Below are positions 38,189 to 63,259 of a DNA stretch of 64,000 nt, one piece after another. Position 1 is the first letter of the stretch, and the number at the start of each line of letters is the position of its first letter. This DNA is from Kordia periserrulae (lineage in GTDB: Bacteria > Bacteroidota > Bacteroidia > Flavobacteriales > Flavobacteriaceae): NCBI RefSeq assembly GCF_003054265.1, contig NZ_QBKT01000001.1, positions 248,001 through 312,000 of the forward strand, given 5' to 3'. Both the position numbers and the translations under genes were made by a program. The notes beneath the pieces were generated by a model. It saw nothing but the letters and a program-made list of their open reading frames with translations. It was not told the origin of the DNA and did no database searches.

Positions 38189-38220
38189 AAAAAAAAAGTT
38201 CCGAATGTATTTCGGAACTT
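38189..38220 (-). terminator. Attenuator terminator of the pheA operon
   Basis: On the minus strand AAGTTCCGAA (38220-38211) pairs perfectly with TTCGGAACTT (38205-38196) around a 5-base loop, followed by nine U (38197-38189). It stands 30 bases after the leader-peptide stop and 230 bases before pheA, so it would stop transcription before the structural genes unless prevented. Confidence 0.9.
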
Positions 38221-38250
38221 ACTTTATATCGTTATTTGTTTTCTACTAAA

Positions 38251-38340
38251 TTACATGACAAAGCGTTCCGACTTCTTTCCAAAAAAGAAGTAAAAATATC
38301 CTTGCCAAAAATAATTTGTATTGAACATGTTGTTTTTCAT
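38251..38340 (-). CDS. Aromatic-rich leader peptide of the pheA operon
   Basis: A 29-codon frame, MKNNMFNTN then YFWQGYFYFFFG then KKSERFVM. Eleven residues are aromatic (7 Phe, 3 Tyr, 1 Trp), nine of them in codons 10-20. It is followed by an intrinsic terminator and then pheA-aminotransferase-tyrA-DAHP synthase, which make exactly these amino acids. The arrangement is that of PheL/TrpL-type attenuation: scarcity of charged tRNA-Phe or -Tyr stalls the ribosome and opens the operon. The peptide itself probably has no function. Confidence 0.88.
   Translation of the reverse strand: MKNNMFNTNYFWQGYFYFFFGKKSERFVM
38265..38271 (-). promoter_or_regulatory. Antiterminator segment in the pheA leader
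   Basis: The minus-strand heptamer TCGGAAC, in leader codons 24-26, is exactly complementary to GTTCCGA in the 5' arm of the terminator (38218-38212). It repeats the sequence of the 3' arm, so the two pairings are mutually exclusive. A ribosome stalled at the aromatic codons 10-20 would leave it free and permit antitermination. Confidence 0.75.
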
Positions 38341-49506: not shown

Positions 49507-49780
49507 TTTTTATAGTGTTCATACGTTTTGTCTTTTTTCAAAATATTTCTTTGAGATTCCACTTTCGTGGGAACTTGTCGTTAAGGATACTTCGGCTTTA
49601 CTCAACAACTTTATATCCTTGCGTTAAGGATAGGAGCATTGTTGGAGCTCTTTGTATGATGAGATTCCTGCCTACGCAGGAATGACAGCGTACAAAAGCG
49701 ACTGCGGATAGCCTGACCCGTTAGGGTAACGCCCAAATTATTATCAAAAAAGTAGTAGGAAATGGTGTGAATTTCACTTA
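49507..49780. other. Leader region between the SAM-I aptamer and metH
   Basis: About 270 bases. On the minus strand it holds the riboswitch expression platform, then GGGCGTTACCCTAACGGGTC (49734-49715), then hairpin repeats of family 4 (49664-49687 GATTCCTGCCTACGCAGGAA; 49552-49572). No clear terminator with a U run was found directly after the aptamer. Confidence 0.55.
49703..49734 (-). repeat. GGGCGTTACCC-type intergenic element
   Basis: Minus strand GGGCGTTACCCTAACGGGTC continuing AGGCTATCCGC. It contains the small hairpin ACCCTAACGGGT. I recall closely similar sequences recurring in intergenic DNA of flavobacteria; this is a single copy here. Confidence 0.4.
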
Positions 49781-49878
49781 GTTATCTATCTGCACTGCAG
49801 TAGAATGTAGCACCTTCTTTAAATGTAAAGGGTTGCTAAGGCGTCAGCGGGTCTATTCCCTCAACCTTTCTTGATAAC
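49781..49878 (-). ncRNA. SAM-I (S-box) riboswitch
   Basis: 98-nt aptamer on the minus strand. P1 pairs GTTATC (49878-49873) with GATAAC (49786-49781). The core shows TCAAGAAAGGTTGAGGGA, then GACCCG, CGCCTTAGCAACC and AAGGTGCTA in the right order. These are the conserved S-box elements that bind S-adenosylmethionine. It should turn off metH-metF when SAM is plentiful. Confidence 0.93.
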
Positions 49879-50059
49879 GACAATATTTGTATGAACTATT
49901 TGCTACAAAGAAACAGTATAGAACAAGAAGATGCAAATATTTTTAGTTGATTTTTAAACGATAACGTTTTCGGTTTGGGTTTTGGGTTGGTTGTCTGTTT
50001 TTCGTTGTTTGTTATTTGTCTATTCGTCGATTTGTTGATTGACAACCGACAACCGACAA

Positions 50060-57750: not shown

Positions 57751-60153
57751 TCAAAGCTTCTCCGTTAGTCGTAAAATATCTCCAAAAACGCCTCTTGCCG
57801 TCACTGCTGCGCCTGCGCCTGCGCCTTGAATGACTAAAGGTTGTGTTTTGTAGGCTTCTGTGTAAATTTCGAAAATGGAATCGGAACCTTTTATCTGTCC
57901 CAATGCTGTATTGTTGGGAACAGAAATTAGTTTTACTTCTAAAATTCCTGTTTCTGTTGATAAATCACCCACATACCTCAACACGTGATTTTTTGGTTGA
58001 TTCGCTTTGATGAGTCGATAGGTTTCATCCAAATCGGTGACTTTCTTTTTGAATTGCTGCAACGGAATCGATTGTAAGTGCGCTGGCAATAAATTTTGAA
58101 TGGTAATGTCTGAAAATTCATGTTTCAAATCCAGTTCTCTGGCAAGGATTAATAACTTTCGTGCCACATCATTTCCCGATAAATCTTCACGCGCATCCGG
58201 TTCGGTATAACCATTTGCTTCCGCTTGTTTTAAAACGTCACTAAAAGACACATCTTCCACCGAAAACGTATTAAACAAATAGCTTAACGAACCTGAAAAA
58301 ACACCGCGAATTTTGTTGATTTTTTCACCCGATTTGTGCAATAATTTAATTGTGTCAATTAATGGCAATCCAGCTCCAACGTTGGTTTCGTACAAATAAT
58401 TTTTTTGATACTTTTTGAGTTCGCTTCGCAACGTTTCATAAAATGAGTACTCAACCGTATTGGCAATTTTATTTGCCGAAACCAAATCGAAGCCATTACT
58501 AACTAAACTTATATAATTATGAATGAAATCCTTACTTGCCGTGGTATCTACCGCAATTAAATTTTCTAAATGATGTGTTTTTGCGTAATCAATAATTTGT
58601 TGCACCGTGTAGGCAACTTTTTCTTTTTTGAATGTTTCTTTCCAATTGTCTGCAATGCCGTTTTTGTCTAAATATACATGTTGCGAATCTGCTACCGCAA
58701 ACACATTGAGTTTGATATTGTTTTTGTCTAAAATGTCTTTCTTGCTTGTAATGATTTGATGGAGCAACGTGCCGCCGACCAAGCCTTTTCCAAATACGGC
58801 AATGTTTATTTTTTTAGAAATTCCGAAAATTTGACCGTGAATGACATTAATCGCTTTGTGTAATTGTGATTTTTTAACCACCAAACTCACATTTTTTCCA
58901 GAAACCGTATTGTTGAACAGAATCGGAACGATTTGATTTTTAATCAACGCGTTGTATGGCTTGTGAAATTCGCTCAGGTCTTGCCCAATAATGGAAATCA
59001 CAGCGACATCATCTACAACCGAAATTTTATTGACATCTTTGTTATAGAAATCATTTTCAAATTCTTTTTCCAAAGCAACAATCGCTTTTGTCGCTTTGGC
59101 AGCGTCAATCACCAAACCAATTCCACGCTCAGACGAACCTTGTGAAATGATGCTCACATTGATGTCATTTTCGCTCATGGTTTTAAAAATTCGTGCATCT
59201 ACGCCTACTCGTCCTAGCAAACCTCTTCCTTCCAAATTAATCAACGCGACATGTTCCATTACTGAAATTGATTTAATCCCTTTTTTAGTCGTTTTTTGCT
59301 TGATGATGGTACCTTCATCCGAGCTGTTAAAGGTGTTTAAAATACGCAACGGAATGTTTTTTTCAATCAGTGGCACCATAGTTTTTGCATGTAAAATATT
59401 TGCTCCAAAAGTGGCCAATTCGTTCGCTTCGTTAAAAGATAATTCTGAGATTTTTCGCGCATCAGCGACCAAATCAGGATTTGCGGTAAAAATGCCGTCT
59501 ACATGTGTGTAATTTTGCAACTCTTCCGCATCTAAAAAATTCGCCAACAACGCCGCGGTATAATTGCTTCCGTTTCTGCCCAACGTAGTCGTTTCATTGT
59601 TTTGATTAGAACCGATAAAACCCGTAACAATATTCACTGTAGTTCCGTTGTGCGATTTGAAATGATTGATAATATTTCTGCGCGAAATGGTATCTAAAGG
59701 ACGTGCATTGCCAAAGGAATTGTCCGTTTTAATCAAGTTTCTAGCATCCGCAAAATGCGCGTTGACACCTTCTTTTTTGAGTAAATTGGTCACTAATTTT
59801 GCTGCAATCAATTCGCCTTGCGACACAATTTGATCTTTTATTTTTTCACTGTAATCGCCTAATAAATAAACACCTTGAAATAAATTTTCGAGCGTAGTGA
59901 ATTCTTCTGTAAAATCGATGGAGCGATCTATTTGACTTTGATAGGCTTTAAAAGCGGTCAATTGTTCGTGATAGGATTCTTTGTTGATTGCTTTTTCTAA
60001 CATTTCTAGCAATTCGTCCGTTGCGTTTCCGCGTGCCGACAAAACCACGGCAATATGTTCTTGTTTTTTTGCCTTTTCTTTGATGATGTCTATTGTGGCT
60101 TTAATTCCTTTTCCGTTTGCGAGCGATGTACCACCAAATTTTAAAATTTTCAT
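57751..60153 (-). CDS. thrA: Bifunctional aspartokinase / homoserine dehydrogenase
   Basis: An 800-residue fusion. The N-terminal aspartokinase (about 1-290: KFGGTSLANGKG, TLGRNGSNYTAALLAN) is followed by two ACT domains (about 310-450) and a homoserine dehydrogenase (about 455-800: IAVFGKGLVGGTLLHQI, ETNVGAGLPLIDTI, GVFSGSLSYLFN, DLSGNDVARK). It makes aspartyl phosphate and homoserine for Met and Thr. Its place directly after metX behind Met/Cys-rich leaders indicates that its supply is tied to methionine need. Confidence 0.96.
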   Translation of the reverse strand: MKILKFGGTSLANGKGIKATIDIIKEKAKKQEHIAVVLSARGNATDELLEMLEKAINKESYHEQLTAFKAYQSQIDRSIDFTEEFTTLENLFQGVYLLGDYSEKIKDQIVSQGELIAAKLVTNLLKKEGVNAHFADARNLIKTDNSFGNARPLDTISRRNIINHFKSHNGTTVNIVTGFIGSNQNNETTTLGRNGSNYTAALLANFLDAEELQNYTHVDGIFTANPDLVADARKISELSFNEANELATFGANILHAKTMVPLIEKNIPLRILNTFNSSDEGTIIKQKTTKKGIKSISVMEHVALINLEGRGLLGRVGVDARIFKTMSENDINVSIISQGSSERGIGLVIDAAKATKAIVALEKEFENDFYNKDVNKISVVDDVAVISIIGQDLSEFHKPYNALIKNQIVPILFNNTVSGKNVSLVVKKSQLHKAINVIHGQIFGISKKINIAVFGKGLVGGTLLHQIITSKKDILDKNNIKLNVFAVADSQHVYLDKNGIADNWKETFKKEKVAYTVQQIIDYAKTHHLENLIAVDTTASKDFIHNYISLVSNGFDLVSANKIANTVEYSFYETLRSELKKYQKNYLYETNVGAGLPLIDTIKLLHKSGEKINKIRGVFSGSLSYLFNTFSVEDVSFSDVLKQAEANGYTEPDAREDLSGNDVARKLLILARELDLKHEFSDITIQNLLPAHLQSIPLQQFKKKVTDLDETYRLIKANQPKNHVLRYVGDLSTETGILEVKLISVPNNTALGQIKGSDSIFEIYTEAYKTQPLVIQGAGAGAAVTARGVFGDILRLTEKL

Positions 60154-60174: not shown

Positions 60175-61170
60175 TTAGATAGATGATTTTTGAACTTGAA
60201 ATATGTTTCTGAGAATGAGACTTAATTGTCCGTATTCTATTAAAAATGCGTCGTGTCCATGAATGGATTGTATTTCATCGTGATATACATTTTCTTTGAA
60301 ACGTTGCAAACGTCGGTAAGTTTCTAGGTCTTCATCAGGCGAGAAAAAGAGATCACTATTGATACTGATAATGTGAATGTTTCCCGTGATTTTTGAAGCC
60401 ACTTCTTCCAACGATGTTCTTCCTCTTGTAATGTCGATGGTTTTTAGCAATTGATTCATCAATTTGTACGCCGCCAATTGATAACGCTGTTGTAATTTTT
60501 TTCCGTGATGCGCCAACCAACTTTCGGTATTGAATATGTTTTTTTCTTTGTGTTGCGTTCGCTGAAATTTTACTTTGAGCGAAAACGGCGTTCTGTAACA
60601 CAACATGGCATGAATACGGGCATCTTCAATTGGATTGTTGGAATTTTCTAAGATGCGTTCTTGCAAAAAACAATTTCCAATCAGCCAATCGGTCGATTTC
60701 CAATCGGAAGCAATCGGAATCAAATTTTGAATTAAATTGGGTTCTAACACTGCCATTTCCCAAGCAATTCCGCCACCTAAGGAACCGCCAATCGCTGCAA
60801 AAAGCTTCTTGATTTGCAAGTTTTCCAATCCTCTGAGAAAAATCTTGGCAATATCACGCGCTACAAAATCTTTGTAATGCTCAATCAATCCAACTTCTGC
60901 TGAAAAACCATTGCCAGGAATGTCGAAACTTAAAATTTTGAAATGATTCGTATCAATACATTTATCATCGCCAATCAAGCTATTCCACCAACCGTTTTCC
61001 CCAGTCACTTCCGAATTTCCCGTCAAGGCATGATTTACCAAAACAATCGGCGCATTGGCATCATCCGAACCTACAAGCTGATAACTCAACTTGAGGTTTG
61101 GATAATACGCGCCGCTTTCCGTAAAGAAATTTGAAATGGTAATATGTGCTGTTTTTTGTGCCGCCATCAC
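60175..61170 (-). CDS. metX: Homoserine O-acetyltransferase
   Basis: Alpha/beta-hydrolase-fold acyltransferase of 331 residues that activates homoserine with acetyl-CoA. Nucleophile Ser130 is in GGSLGGGIAWEM, the NHALTGNSEV motif is near residue 46, and the C-terminal HGHDAFLIEY holds the His. A substrate preference for succinyl-CoA cannot be excluded by eye. The start is 4 bases from the metY stop and its own stop is 21 bases before thrA, so the three genes form one operon. Confidence 0.93.
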   Translation of the reverse strand: MMAAQKTAHITISNFFTESGAYYPNLKLSYQLVGSDDANAPIVLVNHALTGNSEVTGENGWWNSLIGDDKCIDTNHFKILSFDIPGNGFSAEVGLIEHYKDFVARDIAKIFLRGLENLQIKKLFAAIGGSLGGGIAWEMAVLEPNLIQNLIPIASDWKSTDWLIGNCFLQERILENSNNPIEDARIHAMLCYRTPFSLKVKFQRTQHKEKNIFNTESWLAHHGKKLQQRYQLAAYKLMNQLLKTIDITRGRTSLEEVASKITGNIHIISINSDLFFSPDEDLETYRRLQRFKENVYHDEIQSIHGHDAFLIEYGQLSLILRNIFQVQKSSI

Positions 61171-61174
61171 GCTG

Positions 61175-62470
61175 TTATGATGCTGGAATTCCAGCGGTTA
61201 TTTTGTCGAATACGGTTTGTAAATCTGTTTTTAAATCTTCCACATCTTCCAATCCAACAGACAAGCGAATTAAATCTTGCGTAACACCTGTAGAAGCTTG
61301 TTGCTCTTCTGTCAATTGCTGATGTGTGGTACTTGCTGGATGAATAATTAAGGATTTGGTATCGCCAATATTGGCTAAGAGCGAGAATACTTTTGTTTCA
61401 TCAGCAATGCGTTTTGCCGCTTCGTACCCAGCTTTGATACCAAACGTTACAATGCCACTTTGTCCTTTTGGCAAGTATTTTTCTGCTAAAGCTTTGTAAT
61501 TGCTCGTTTCCAATCCCGGATAATTTACCCAAGCTACCGCTTCTTGTGTTTGCAACCATTTTGCTAATTCGAGTGCGTTTTTGCTGTGTTGTTTGATTCG
61601 AATTGGCAAAGTTTCCAATCCTTGAATGATTTGAAACGCGTTGAACGGACTCAATGCCGAACCAAAATCGCGCAATCCTTCAATACGAACTTTCGCAATA
61701 AACGCCGCGGCTTCCAACGCTTCGCTATATACCAATCCGTGATATCCTGGTGATGGTTCTGTAAACTCTGGAAACTTTCCGTTGGTCCAGTCAAACGTTC
61801 CCGCATCGATGATAGCTCCTCCTAAGGCAGTTCCGTTTCCGTTAATGTATTTGGTAAGTGAGTGAATGACGATATTTGCACCGTGTTTGATAGGATTCAA
61901 TAAATAAGGCGTGGCAATGGTGTTATCGACAATGAGTGGAATTTTGTTGGCTTTGGCTTGTGCGGAAATCGCTTCGATATCTAACACATCTAATTTTGGG
62001 TTTCCGAGCGACTCAATGAAGACAGCTCTTGTGTTTTCTTGTACAGCATCTGAGAAACTATTTTCTACGTCTGGATCGACAAATGTGGTAGTAATTCCGA
62101 GTCTTGGTAGCGTGACGTTCAGCAAGTTATACGTTCCGCCATACAAGCTATTGGAAGCTACAATATGATCGCCTGCTCTAAGCAAAGTTAGTAGCGTCGT
62201 TGCAATGGCTGCTGTCCCAGATGCAGTAACTACTGCGGCAATTCCACCTTCCAATGCTGCGAGTCGTTGCTCTAAAATATCGTTGGTCGGATTGTTAATT
62301 CGGGTGTAAATATTTCCTGGCTCTGCTAAGGAAAATAAATTGGACGCATGATCCGAATTATTAAATACGTACGCTGTTGATTGATAAATTGGAACTGCTC
62401 GTGTTCCGCCATTTTGCGTAGTGTCGTGTCCTGAATGCAATGCTTTTGTTGCGAATTGTTGTGTGCTCAT
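61175..62470 (-). CDS. metY: O-acetylhomoserine sulfhydrylase
   Basis: PLP enzyme of 431 residues, the length typical of MetY (longer than MetB/MetZ), that makes homocysteine from O-acetylhomoserine and sulfide. The lysine motif is HSLTKYINGNGTALGG (about 205-220), with YTRINNPTNDILEQRLAALEGG and the C-terminal STTHQQLTEEQQ. First structural gene of metY-metX-thrA. It is preceded by two tandem leader peptides, each with an intrinsic terminator. Confidence 0.94.
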   Translation of the reverse strand: MSTQQFATKALHSGHDTTQNGGTRAVPIYQSTAYVFNNSDHASNLFSLAEPGNIYTRINNPTNDILEQRLAALEGGIAAVVTASGTAAIATTLLTLLRAGDHIVASNSLYGGTYNLLNVTLPRLGITTTFVDPDVENSFSDAVQENTRAVFIESLGNPKLDVLDIEAISAQAKANKIPLIVDNTIATPYLLNPIKHGANIVIHSLTKYINGNGTALGGAIIDAGTFDWTNGKFPEFTEPSPGYHGLVYSEALEAAAFIAKVRIEGLRDFGSALSPFNAFQIIQGLETLPIRIKQHSKNALELAKWLQTQEAVAWVNYPGLETSNYKALAEKYLPKGQSGIVTFGIKAGYEAAKRIADETKVFSLLANIGDTKSLIIHPASTTHQQLTEEQQASTGVTQDLIRLSVGLEDVEDLKTDLQTVFDKITAGIPAS

Positions 62471-62590: not shown

Positions 62591-62636
62591 AAAAAAGGCC
62601 CTTTTGGGAAAACTATTACCAAAAGGACCTTTTTTT
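62591..62636 (-). terminator. Second attenuator terminator of the metY operon
   Basis: On the minus strand a long hairpin, AAGGTCCTTTTGG (5' arm, about 62631-62619) with CCAAAAGGGCCTT (3' arm, about 62607-62595), one G-U pair, an 11-base loop, ends in a run of six U (62596-62591). It follows leader B by 18 bases and precedes metY by about 120. Confidence 0.88.
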
Positions 62637-62653
62637 GAATTATAACAAATGCG

Positions 62654-62782
62654 TTAGCATTTATCTGGAACTTTTCGATAATAGCAAGCTTGGCTACAGC
62701 ACATCATGCACATAACCATCATCATACAGCAACACGTTGTTTTGGTTGGTTCGATTCCTGCTATTTGAAAAATTTGACTCAT
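62654..62782 (-). CDS. Met/Cys-rich leader peptide B of the metY operon
   Basis: A 42-codon frame. After MSQIFQIAGIEPTKTT come thirteen residues CCCMMMVMCMMCC (six Met, six Cys), then SQACYYRKVPDKC. The stop at 62656-62654 is followed by a U-run terminator and then metY-metX-thrA. The composition matches the operon products, methionine and the sulfur pathway, as in classical leader-peptide attenuation. A possible antiterminator is weaker than in leader A: CGAAAAGTTCC (codons 36-39) pairs only in part with GGTCCTTTTGG. Confidence 0.85.
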   Translation of the reverse strand: MSQIFQIAGIEPTKTTCCCMMMVMCMMCCSQACYYRKVPDKC

Positions 62783-62821: not shown

Positions 62822-62850
62822 AAAAAAGCCTCTGCGTTTTGCAGAGGCTT
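62822..62850 (-). terminator. First attenuator terminator of the metY operon
   Basis: On the minus strand AAGCCTCTGC (62850-62841) pairs perfectly with GCAGAGGCTT (62835-62826) around a 5-base loop and runs into six U (62827-62822). It stands 24 bases after the stop of leader A and 39 bases before the start of leader B. Confidence 0.92.
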
Positions 62851-62874
62851 AATGTTATTGTGAAATACGTTCAG

Positions 62875-62952
62875 TTATCGTAATACAATAGAGTCCTCTG
62901 CGGCATTTCTACTACACATCATACAACACATATTACAAACTTTAGTATACAT
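62875..62952 (-). CDS. Met/Cys-rich leader peptide A of the metY operon
   Basis: A 25-codon frame MYTKVCNMCCMMCS then RNAAEDSIVLR. Codons 6-13 carry four Cys and three Met of eight (C-N-M-C-C-M-M-C). It is only about 14 bases from the inferred transcription start. A perfect intrinsic terminator follows. Leader codons 18-20 contain GCAGAGG, an exact complement of the terminator 5' arm, which gives the classical stalled-ribosome switch. Sensing of Met-tRNA, Cys-tRNA or both is inferred from codon content. Confidence 0.87.
   Translation of the reverse strand: MYTKVCNMCCMMCSRNAAEDSIVLR
62895..62901 (-). promoter_or_regulatory. Antiterminator segment in leader A
   Basis: Minus-strand GCAGAGG repeats the 3' arm sequence of the terminator and can pair with CCTCTGC of its 5' arm (62847-62841). 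It lies just downstream of the Met/Cys codons, where a stalled ribosome would leave it exposed. Confidence 0.75.
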
Positions 62953-62970
62953 TTTCTGTTTTGTTTGTCA

Positions 62971-63003
62971 CAAAGGTAAAGTTATAATTTTTTAAAATCC
63001 AAA
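62971..63003 (-). promoter_or_regulatory. Promoter of the metY operon leader transcript
   Basis: On the minus strand TTTG (63003-63000) and TACCTTTG (62978-62971), an exact TAnnTTTG, are 21 bases apart. The leader A ATG follows 18 bases after the -7 box. Confidence 0.75.
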
Positions 63004-63099: not shown

Positions 63100-63105
63100 C
63101 ACCTG

Positions 63106-63178
63106 TTTTGAGGAAAAATTTGAACTGATTGCAACCTCAAGTACTGAATTTTCAGTATGCTAAAAAATGCTAAAGCAG
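63106..63178 (+). ncRNA. Probable SAM-II riboswitch
   Basis: H-type pseudoknot pattern. P1 TTGAGG (63108-63113) pairs with CCTCAA (63135-63140). The loop has ATTTGAACTGATTGCAA, close to the SAM-II loop. CTG (63125-63127) can pair with CAG (63176-63178), and GCA (63131-63133) with TGC (63168-63170), framing the conserved GCTAAAG. An extra 7-bp hairpin (TACTGAA / TTCAGTA, 63142-63157) sits in the connecting loop. The place before metK, the SAM synthetase gene, fits feedback by SAM. Confidence 0.7.
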
Positions 63179-63259
63179 TAATTTTCTACTTCTTTAGACG
63201 ACCAAGCAATCGCTTTTTTAATTTTCCACACTATTTTAATTTTTAAAAGAAGATTTATT

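Follow-up and report, generated by a model that had tools for sequence, protein, structure and literature searches.

The 64,000-bp region of the Kordia periserrulae genome analyzed here (the window; contig NZ_QBKT01000001.1, positions 248,001 to 312,000) includes two short open reading frames, named leader A and leader B, that are rich in methionine and cysteine codons, are each followed by an intrinsic terminator, and lie in tandem in the interval that separates metK (plus strand, from 63260) from metY (minus strand). Comparative sequence analysis indicates, with a probability that we place at about 0.86, that they are two ribosome-mediated transcription attenuators in series that sense charged tRNA-Met and tRNA-Cys and control metY-metX. 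An earlier note had read leader A as Met/Cys leader-peptide attenuation ahead of genes for methionine synthesis. The attenuation reading is supported by the exchange of the leaders with the SAM-I riboswitch, the pairing of a codon arm with the terminator, the covariation of these arms and the geometry of the stalled ribosome, and the location is correct. The proposed first controlled gene, metY (61175-62470, minus strand), codes for an O-acetylhomoserine aminocarboxypropyltransferase (TIGR01326, 635.6 bits, above the cut-off) that is 94-96% identical to four Kordia proteins. It is followed on the same strand by a metX-like homoserine O-acetyltransferase gene (60175-61170; best match TIGR01392, below the cut-off) and by a gene coding for a bifunctional aspartate kinase/homoserine dehydrogenase (57751-60153; NF006959, above the cut-off).

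Leader A is a frame of 25 codons on the minus strand (62952-62875) coding for the peptide MYTKVCNMCCMMCSRNAAEDSIVLR, with the ATG at 62952 and the stop codon TAA at 62877-62875. Its sensing codons 6-13 (62914-62937), C-N-M-C-C-M-M-C, include four Cys and three Met. The antiterminator arm is located inside the frame (62891-62902, minus strand), and its core, GCAGAGG at 62901-62895, occupies codons 18-20. The intrinsic terminator (62822-62850, minus strand) consists of arms 62850-62841 and 62835-62826, forming a 10-bp stem with the loop AAAAC, and a run of six T (62827-62822) on which the final two pairs of the stem draw. The octamer TACCTTTG (62978-62971, minus strand), 18 nt 5' of the ATG, is of the TAnnTTTG type, a consensus on the basis of which we take it to be a promoter −7 element. 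The earlier note had described the frame with its Met/Cys codons, the hairpin with its six U, the second partner of the terminator 5' arm and the promoter motif, and all of them were found as described. What it left out was half of the system, leader B and its terminator.

Leader B (62654-62782, minus strand) is a frame of 42 codons, MSQIFQIAGIEPTKTTCCCMMMVMCMMCCSQACYYRKVPDKC, in which the sensing codons 17-29 (62696-62734, minus strand) read CCCMMMVMCMMCC. Its antiterminator arm, TGCTATTATCGAAAAGTTCCA (62686-62666, minus strand; codons C-Y-Y-R-K-V-P), can form a duplex with terminator B (62593-62633, minus strand) over its 5' arm and loop; the two arms of this terminator, 62633-62619 and 62607-62593, are followed by T residues to 62591. 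Of 36 distinct leader A frames, 23 have the TAnnTTTG motif within 45 nt upstream (chance 0.028), as opposed to none of 32 leader B frames, while TTTG is found 10-35 nt upstream of all 36 leader A frames (chance 0.128) and of three of the 32 leader B frames. The simplest reading would be one promoter and one transcript that runs through A and then B.

In the proposed mechanism each leader would present, in this order, the Met/Cys run, the arm a, and the terminator 5' arm b, which could pair either with a or with the terminator 3' arm c. When Met or Cys is short the ribosome would halt on the run and leave a free to capture b before c is made, so that the polymerase would read on. When both are ample the ribosome would reach the stop codon and cover part or all of a, b:c would form, and transcription would end. 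RNA polymerase would have to get past both switches, and MetY, being nearly free of Met and Cys, could then be made in starved cells. The sequence includes a conserved frame with its codon run (translation being predicted), an intrinsic terminator, a competing antiterminator and, under the assumed footprint, an appropriate stall geometry. Control of methionine genes in bacteria is usually ascribed to SAM riboswitches, T-boxes or repressors. At the Kordia leaders neither SAM-I nor SAM-II matched at the Rfam gathering score, within the window no T-box did, and no curated Rfam leader family matched at that score in the window, in the best 80 of 567 metY loci, in 50 further metY loci or in five other loci.

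To assess the a:b pairing, elements were picked by their Met/Cys run and terminator, the pairing itself being no criterion, and some came from loci found with the models R1 and R2. These models matched 53 of 296 genomes (E≤0.001) and 38 of 296 (E≤1e-4), respectively, with many weak matches among both. The 119 elements became 118 when an antisense frame (MFSCFCMCVF…) was dropped, and 45 after thinning at 80% similarity. Over these 45 the mean energy of the pairing of the arm with the terminator 5' arm and loop was −13.1 kcal/mol, to be compared with −7.9 for synonymous recodings based on metY codon usage (26/45 at p≤0.05 and 17/45 at p≤0.01) and −7.2 for dinucleotide shuffles (37/45 and 25/45, respectively); since the elements are related, these p values are not independent. 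The more conservative recoding with leader-derived codon usage left 14/45 at p≤0.05. For leader A the value was −14.7 kcal/mol versus means of −8.3 for recodings (p 0.035) and −6.8 for shuffles (p 0.005); for leader B it was −15.7 kcal/mol (p 0.087 synonymous, 0.010 dinucleotide). Leader B is one of the 19 elements above p 0.05 in the synonymous test. Five of these 19 have p 1.0 because the frame contributes nothing to the pairing: in four a good arm follows only after the stop codon, out of reach of the recoding, and in the fifth, L112-2159, no convincing arm was found.

The arms also change jointly. Seven of seven pairs in both a:b and b:c were found in 67 of the 118 elements, the best 7-mer being chosen without a null of its own, over 11 b cores. 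Five of these cores represent one CCTCTG sequence in other registers or in nearly identical copies, which leaves about seven really different ones. Thus CCTCTGC is found with GCAGAGG, GCCTTTG with CGAAGGC and GCCTCTT with AAGAGGC, and further joint changes associate ACTCCTC with GAGGGGT, TTCAGGT with GCCTGAA and CTTTTGG with CCAAAAG. The covariation check suggested by the earlier note therefore came out positive: changes in the terminator 5' arm are accompanied by changes in both of its partners, the codon arm and the 3' arm of the terminator. Such behavior bears on the idea that the frames code for small metal-binding proteins, for example for copper, or for metal-responsive stalling peptides, while the terminators just end transcripts. 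Cys/Met-rich runs do look like metal-binding motifs; against this, the pairing of the codons beyond the run with the terminator is stronger than coding for the peptide would require, the arms change together with the terminators, and the leaders replace SAM-I ahead of metY and stand ahead of cysteine genes, all of which makes a role in metal binding very improbable.

Taken alone, the b:c pairing exceeds a:b in stability in 40 of the 45 elements (−17.1 versus −14.7 kcal/mol for leader A), and the order of synthesis must therefore decide between them. A terminator more stable than the antiterminator is usual for attenuators. The arm starts a median of 11 nt past the last Met/Cys codon of the run, and in 38/45 elements it starts within 7-18 nt, as compared to 25% in shuffles. 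We assumed a ribosome footprint of 29 nt, extending from 13 nt before to 15 nt after the first base of the P site, values generally given for the ribosome; this footprint was our choice, as were the way of thinning the elements and that of defining the run. Under these assumptions a mean of 7% of the arm is masked with the last Met/Cys codon in the A site and 62% with the ribosome at the stop codon, masking being lower at the stall in 43/45 elements, equal in one and higher in one. For the two Kordia leaders the masking at the stop codon amounts to just 25% (A) or 33% (B) of the arm; there the block of a:b is probably exerted by ribosomes that are still crossing the arm while b emerges.

A protecting segment-1 (1:2) hairpin was detected in 8/45 elements at p≤0.05. 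A design without such a hairpin, in which the untranslated leader would be ON, had some appeal because Met starvation limits initiation as well. It was not supported: without a ribosome the mean probability of the arm being unpaired is 0.38 and exceeds 0.5 in 12/45 elements, alongside the segment-1 pairing in those eight.

Another possibility is that the nascent peptide arrests the ribosome upon binding SAM or another metabolite, as in plant CGS1. The leader A residues past the run are conserved within groups, as this would predict; they vary between groups outside the run (SRNAAED, WNNPQR, PETSAAH, KEIYAKA), and the residues that stay constant are those that encode the pairing arm. We regard arrest by the peptide as highly unlikely, and ribosome stalling on Met and Cys codons as the preferred reading.

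Both leaders were found in 11 of 11 Kordia genomes (the window's own and ten others). The search for Met/Cys frames upstream of metY that the earlier note called for was carried out on the best 80 of 567 metY loci confirmed in GTDB genomes with Kordia MetY as the query, a choice that makes the sample lean towards Kordia-like MetY proteins. At least one leader was present in 39 of these best 80 of 567 loci, both in 19, only A in 10 and only B in 10, the A/B typing being based on the terminator sequence and one of the B-only loci, L064, having just 167 nt of upstream DNA before the end of the contig. Four Kordia genomes were included in duplicate (L004=L032, L007=L034, L010=L035, L011=L033), and the alignments and thinned sets were made after merging identical sequences. 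Among the best 80 of 567 loci, leaders occur in the named genera Kordia, Flavobacterium, Christiangramia and Salegentibacter. Loss of the frame or of its Met/Cys codons in syntenic relatives, which the earlier note considered as counting against a leader, was not seen within Kordia. Some loci of other genera, part of Flavobacterium included, lack one of the two leaders, and the A frame of F. psychrophilum (L084) reads on through its own terminator. The place of leader B in a Flavobacterium subgroup (L069, L072, L078) is taken by a short PRRCCRMC frame, with no terminator detected between it and metY.

The 41 loci without a leader in this sample are accounted for almost entirely by another sensor. 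In 39 of the best 80 of 567 loci a SAM-I riboswitch (RF00162) has its end no more than 450 nt ahead of metY, a leader and SAM-I were found together in none of the 80, and only L062 and L088 have neither, L088 having SAM-II there. The exclusion is significant by Fisher's test (8e-21) with kinship ignored. On a MetY tree built by a quick method from the best 80 of 567 loci the leader label needs three changes, at least two of which are forced by well supported branches, and Kordia falls among SAM-I bearers. Short ATG frames with at least five Met/Cys in a 9-codon window and an adjoining terminator numbered 56 in the 1.1 kb upstream of metY and two in the remaining 1.14 Mb of strand of the best 80 of 567 loci, and one of those two stands ahead of cysE-cysK genes. 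These figures bear on the view that ordinary upstream terminators and chance frames occur here with no regulation. AT-rich intergenic DNA does contain many short frames; the enrichment, the pairing and spacing nulls, and the persistence of frame, run, arm and terminator from genus to genus all argue against it. A no-regulation reading, to which we give almost no weight, is already contradicted by the comparative data.

Outside the order, 50 metY loci were inspected (30 best matches and 20 hand-picked, from 49 of the 118 genomes with a match among 148). A leader occurs in five of these loci and SAM-I in 40, L296 being the one with both, and neither sensor is present in six. The Met/Cys leaders in L240, L242, L291, L292 and L296 all have a matching arm, and those of L240 form a tandem. 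In L296 (2313-2621) a Met/Cys leader attenuator is followed by SAM-I, both ahead of one metY, and thus two kinds of sensor are arranged in series; the exclusion of leader and SAM-I is not an absolute rule.

Leaders of this kind are also found ahead of other sulfur genes. A leader A-like element precedes a cysE-cysK-…-cysI-cysG operon (L143), tandem leaders with unrelated arm sequences precede cysH-cysD (L149) and cysH-cysD-cysN, apparently with a small gene in between (L155), and the Cys-dominated leader MRFTCCSACTCMGILSTEERYYI of L069 stands ahead of cysE-like and cysK genes. Leaders upstream of cysD as a general feature were considered and rejected: apart from the cysH-cysD cases, L149 and L155, there were none in 30 loci (L197-L226), which cover just about 1.5 kb per side so that a remote operon start would escape, nor in 20 hand-picked regions (L257-L276), this sample being drawn from the 94 genomes with CysD among 148.

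Several further elements were noted in the course of these comparisons. A leader A-like element is located ahead of a TonB-dependent receptor gene (948 aa) in L153, where the function may perhaps be uptake of sulfur compounds, and others in L123, L125, L130 and L118 precede a long frame that is cut by the end of the locus. A third leader type, several copies of which have a C-terminal CxC, is followed by the terminator AACCCTTTTGGA (L068 5806, L073 6812, L100 2743, L134 1684, L137 1723). In its thinned copies (L068, L073, L137) an arm with TTCCA(A/G)AAG lies beyond the stop codon, and the L068 and L073 copies are downstream of metY. Two tandem Met/Cys-like short frames with terminators are found on the minus strand of L142 (6027-6350 of the reverse complement) before genes coding for 334 and 481 aa; the second frame has no good antiterminator (dinucleotide p 0.726).

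It could be argued that methionine alone is sensed and that the Cys codons are passengers or tune the stall. Met is present in the densest 9-codon window of all 45 thinned elements, 39 of which also have Cys there and six Met alone. These windows include 180 Met and 103 Cys codons, and the leaders of L135 and L139, ahead of metY, have Met-only runs. The Cys codons in the run of 39/45 elements count against this, as do their excess over Met in Kordia leader A, the L069 leader with its four Cys and one internal Met before cysE-cysK, and the composition of MetY, which lacks Cys as well as Met. Sensing of methionine alone thus appears possible, if rather doubtful, and joint sensing of the two amino acids is the reading we retain.

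Biosynthetic enzymes tend to use little of their cognate amino acid, and MetY takes this to an extreme. Apart from the start codon, the 431 residues of Kordia MetY include neither Met nor Cys, which makes it the sole such case among the 34 frames of at least 250 codons in the window; MetX and the aspartate kinase/homoserine dehydrogenase have four Met each. Among the 34,362 residues of the MetY proteins of the best 80 of 567 loci there are six internal Met and nine Cys, against 1.8% and 0.75%, respectively, as the background in the window, and 72 of these proteins have neither. The eight exceptions (L037, L053, L062, L077, L081, L087, L092, L110) all belong to loci without a leader; consequently, neither internal Met nor Cys is found in the MetY of any of the 39 leader loci among the best 80 of 567, an association that kinship may explain. 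Near-complete avoidance of both amino acids fits an enzyme needed in cells short of Met and Cys.

The trp, his, phe, thr and ilv leaders are well known ribosome-mediated transcription attenuators. The Kordia leaders share with these classical systems the short frame rich in codons for the product, the intrinsic terminator and the competing antiterminator, and differ from them in mixing Met and Cys in one run, in being two in series, in having no consistent segment-1 hairpin, and in their place ahead of metY in Bacteroidetes. The Kordia genome also has a His and a Phe leader of this layout, with a terminator and with arms lying 6 and 8 nt past the run (no null was calculated for the two); as opposed to metY, one leader was found for each, with no tandem and with other amino acids. 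The His leader, MSFTQLHHHHFHTCPQAS, is followed by a terminator and stands ahead of hisG (L192, the window's own genome, contig 4). The Phe leader, MKNNMFNTNYFWQGYFYFFFGKKSERFVM, at about 38340-38251 on the minus strand of the window, has an arm, GTCGGAACG, able to pair with its terminator (about 38220-38196) and is located ahead of a prephenate dehydratase gene, the whole spanning 38196-38340.

A 2010 article stated that no leader peptide system was known outside the Proteobacteria and Actinobacteria before its own case in Firmicutes (PMC2965389). A methionine leader, 'metL', ending in ARCMCRRMCAF, has been described before metNIQ of Streptomyces lividans (PMC8079986). It resembles the Kordia leaders in having Met and Cys codons (CMCRRMC) ahead of a methionine gene and differs in belonging to the Actinobacteria, serving a transporter operon, being single and having no typical intrinsic terminator reported. 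Runs of Cys codons occur in leaders of Actinobacteria, with no conserved terminator in the Mycobacterium regions (PMC1262725), and in uORFC-8-2 before cysS of Rhodobacterales, the U run at its end being interpreted as a terminator (PMC8632094). Such leaders are alike in standing before cysteine or cysteinyl-tRNA synthetase genes, and differ in using Cys alone and in phylum and genes. Closer relatives have provided clues: there are indications of leader-peptide attenuation before amino-acid operons of F. psychrophilum, with pheA and hisG among conserved 5' elements (PMC9723704), and long 5' UTRs with leader-peptide-like short frames in Bacteroides thetaiotaomicron (PMC7366714). The earlier suggestion that the system may be undescribed hence holds in part: a Met leader in Streptomyces lividans and clues for attenuation in flavobacteria are in print, while a search of open-access articles gave no mixed Met/Cys leaders in Bacteroidetes, no such tandem and no exchange with SAM-I at metY, although an earlier mention is possible. 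The principle of attenuation is known.

SAM-I, found at the corresponding position before metY in 39 of the best 80 of 567 loci, differs from the leaders in binding SAM directly. The genome of the window shows a division of labor, with SAM-I at metH, SAM-II at metK and Met/Cys leaders at metY. The SAM-I (49779-49880, minus strand) precedes a methionine synthase (metH) split in two genes, a 335-aa N-terminal part and then 902 aa. The SAM-II (long loop) riboswitch (63104-63183, plus strand) lies directly ahead of metK, divergent from the leaders, and 37 of the best 80 of 567 loci have a SAM-II on the strand opposite metY.

We give even odds to a broader interpretation, in which metY in Bacteroidetes would be an evolutionary exchange point between a SAM riboswitch and a translation-based sensor of total sulfur amino acids. 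This sensor would often consist of two Met+Cys attenuators in series acting as a double gate, would repeatedly have disappeared, returned or been transferred to cysteine genes, and would drive an enzyme almost free of sulfur amino acids. Met leaders in general pose a question, as Met starvation should hinder initiation at the leader too. A group of environmental bacteria appears to read the charging of Met and Cys tRNAs where relatives keep a SAM riboswitch, and metY offers a direct test case of why a cell would sense the amino acid over its product and of how sensors replace one another.
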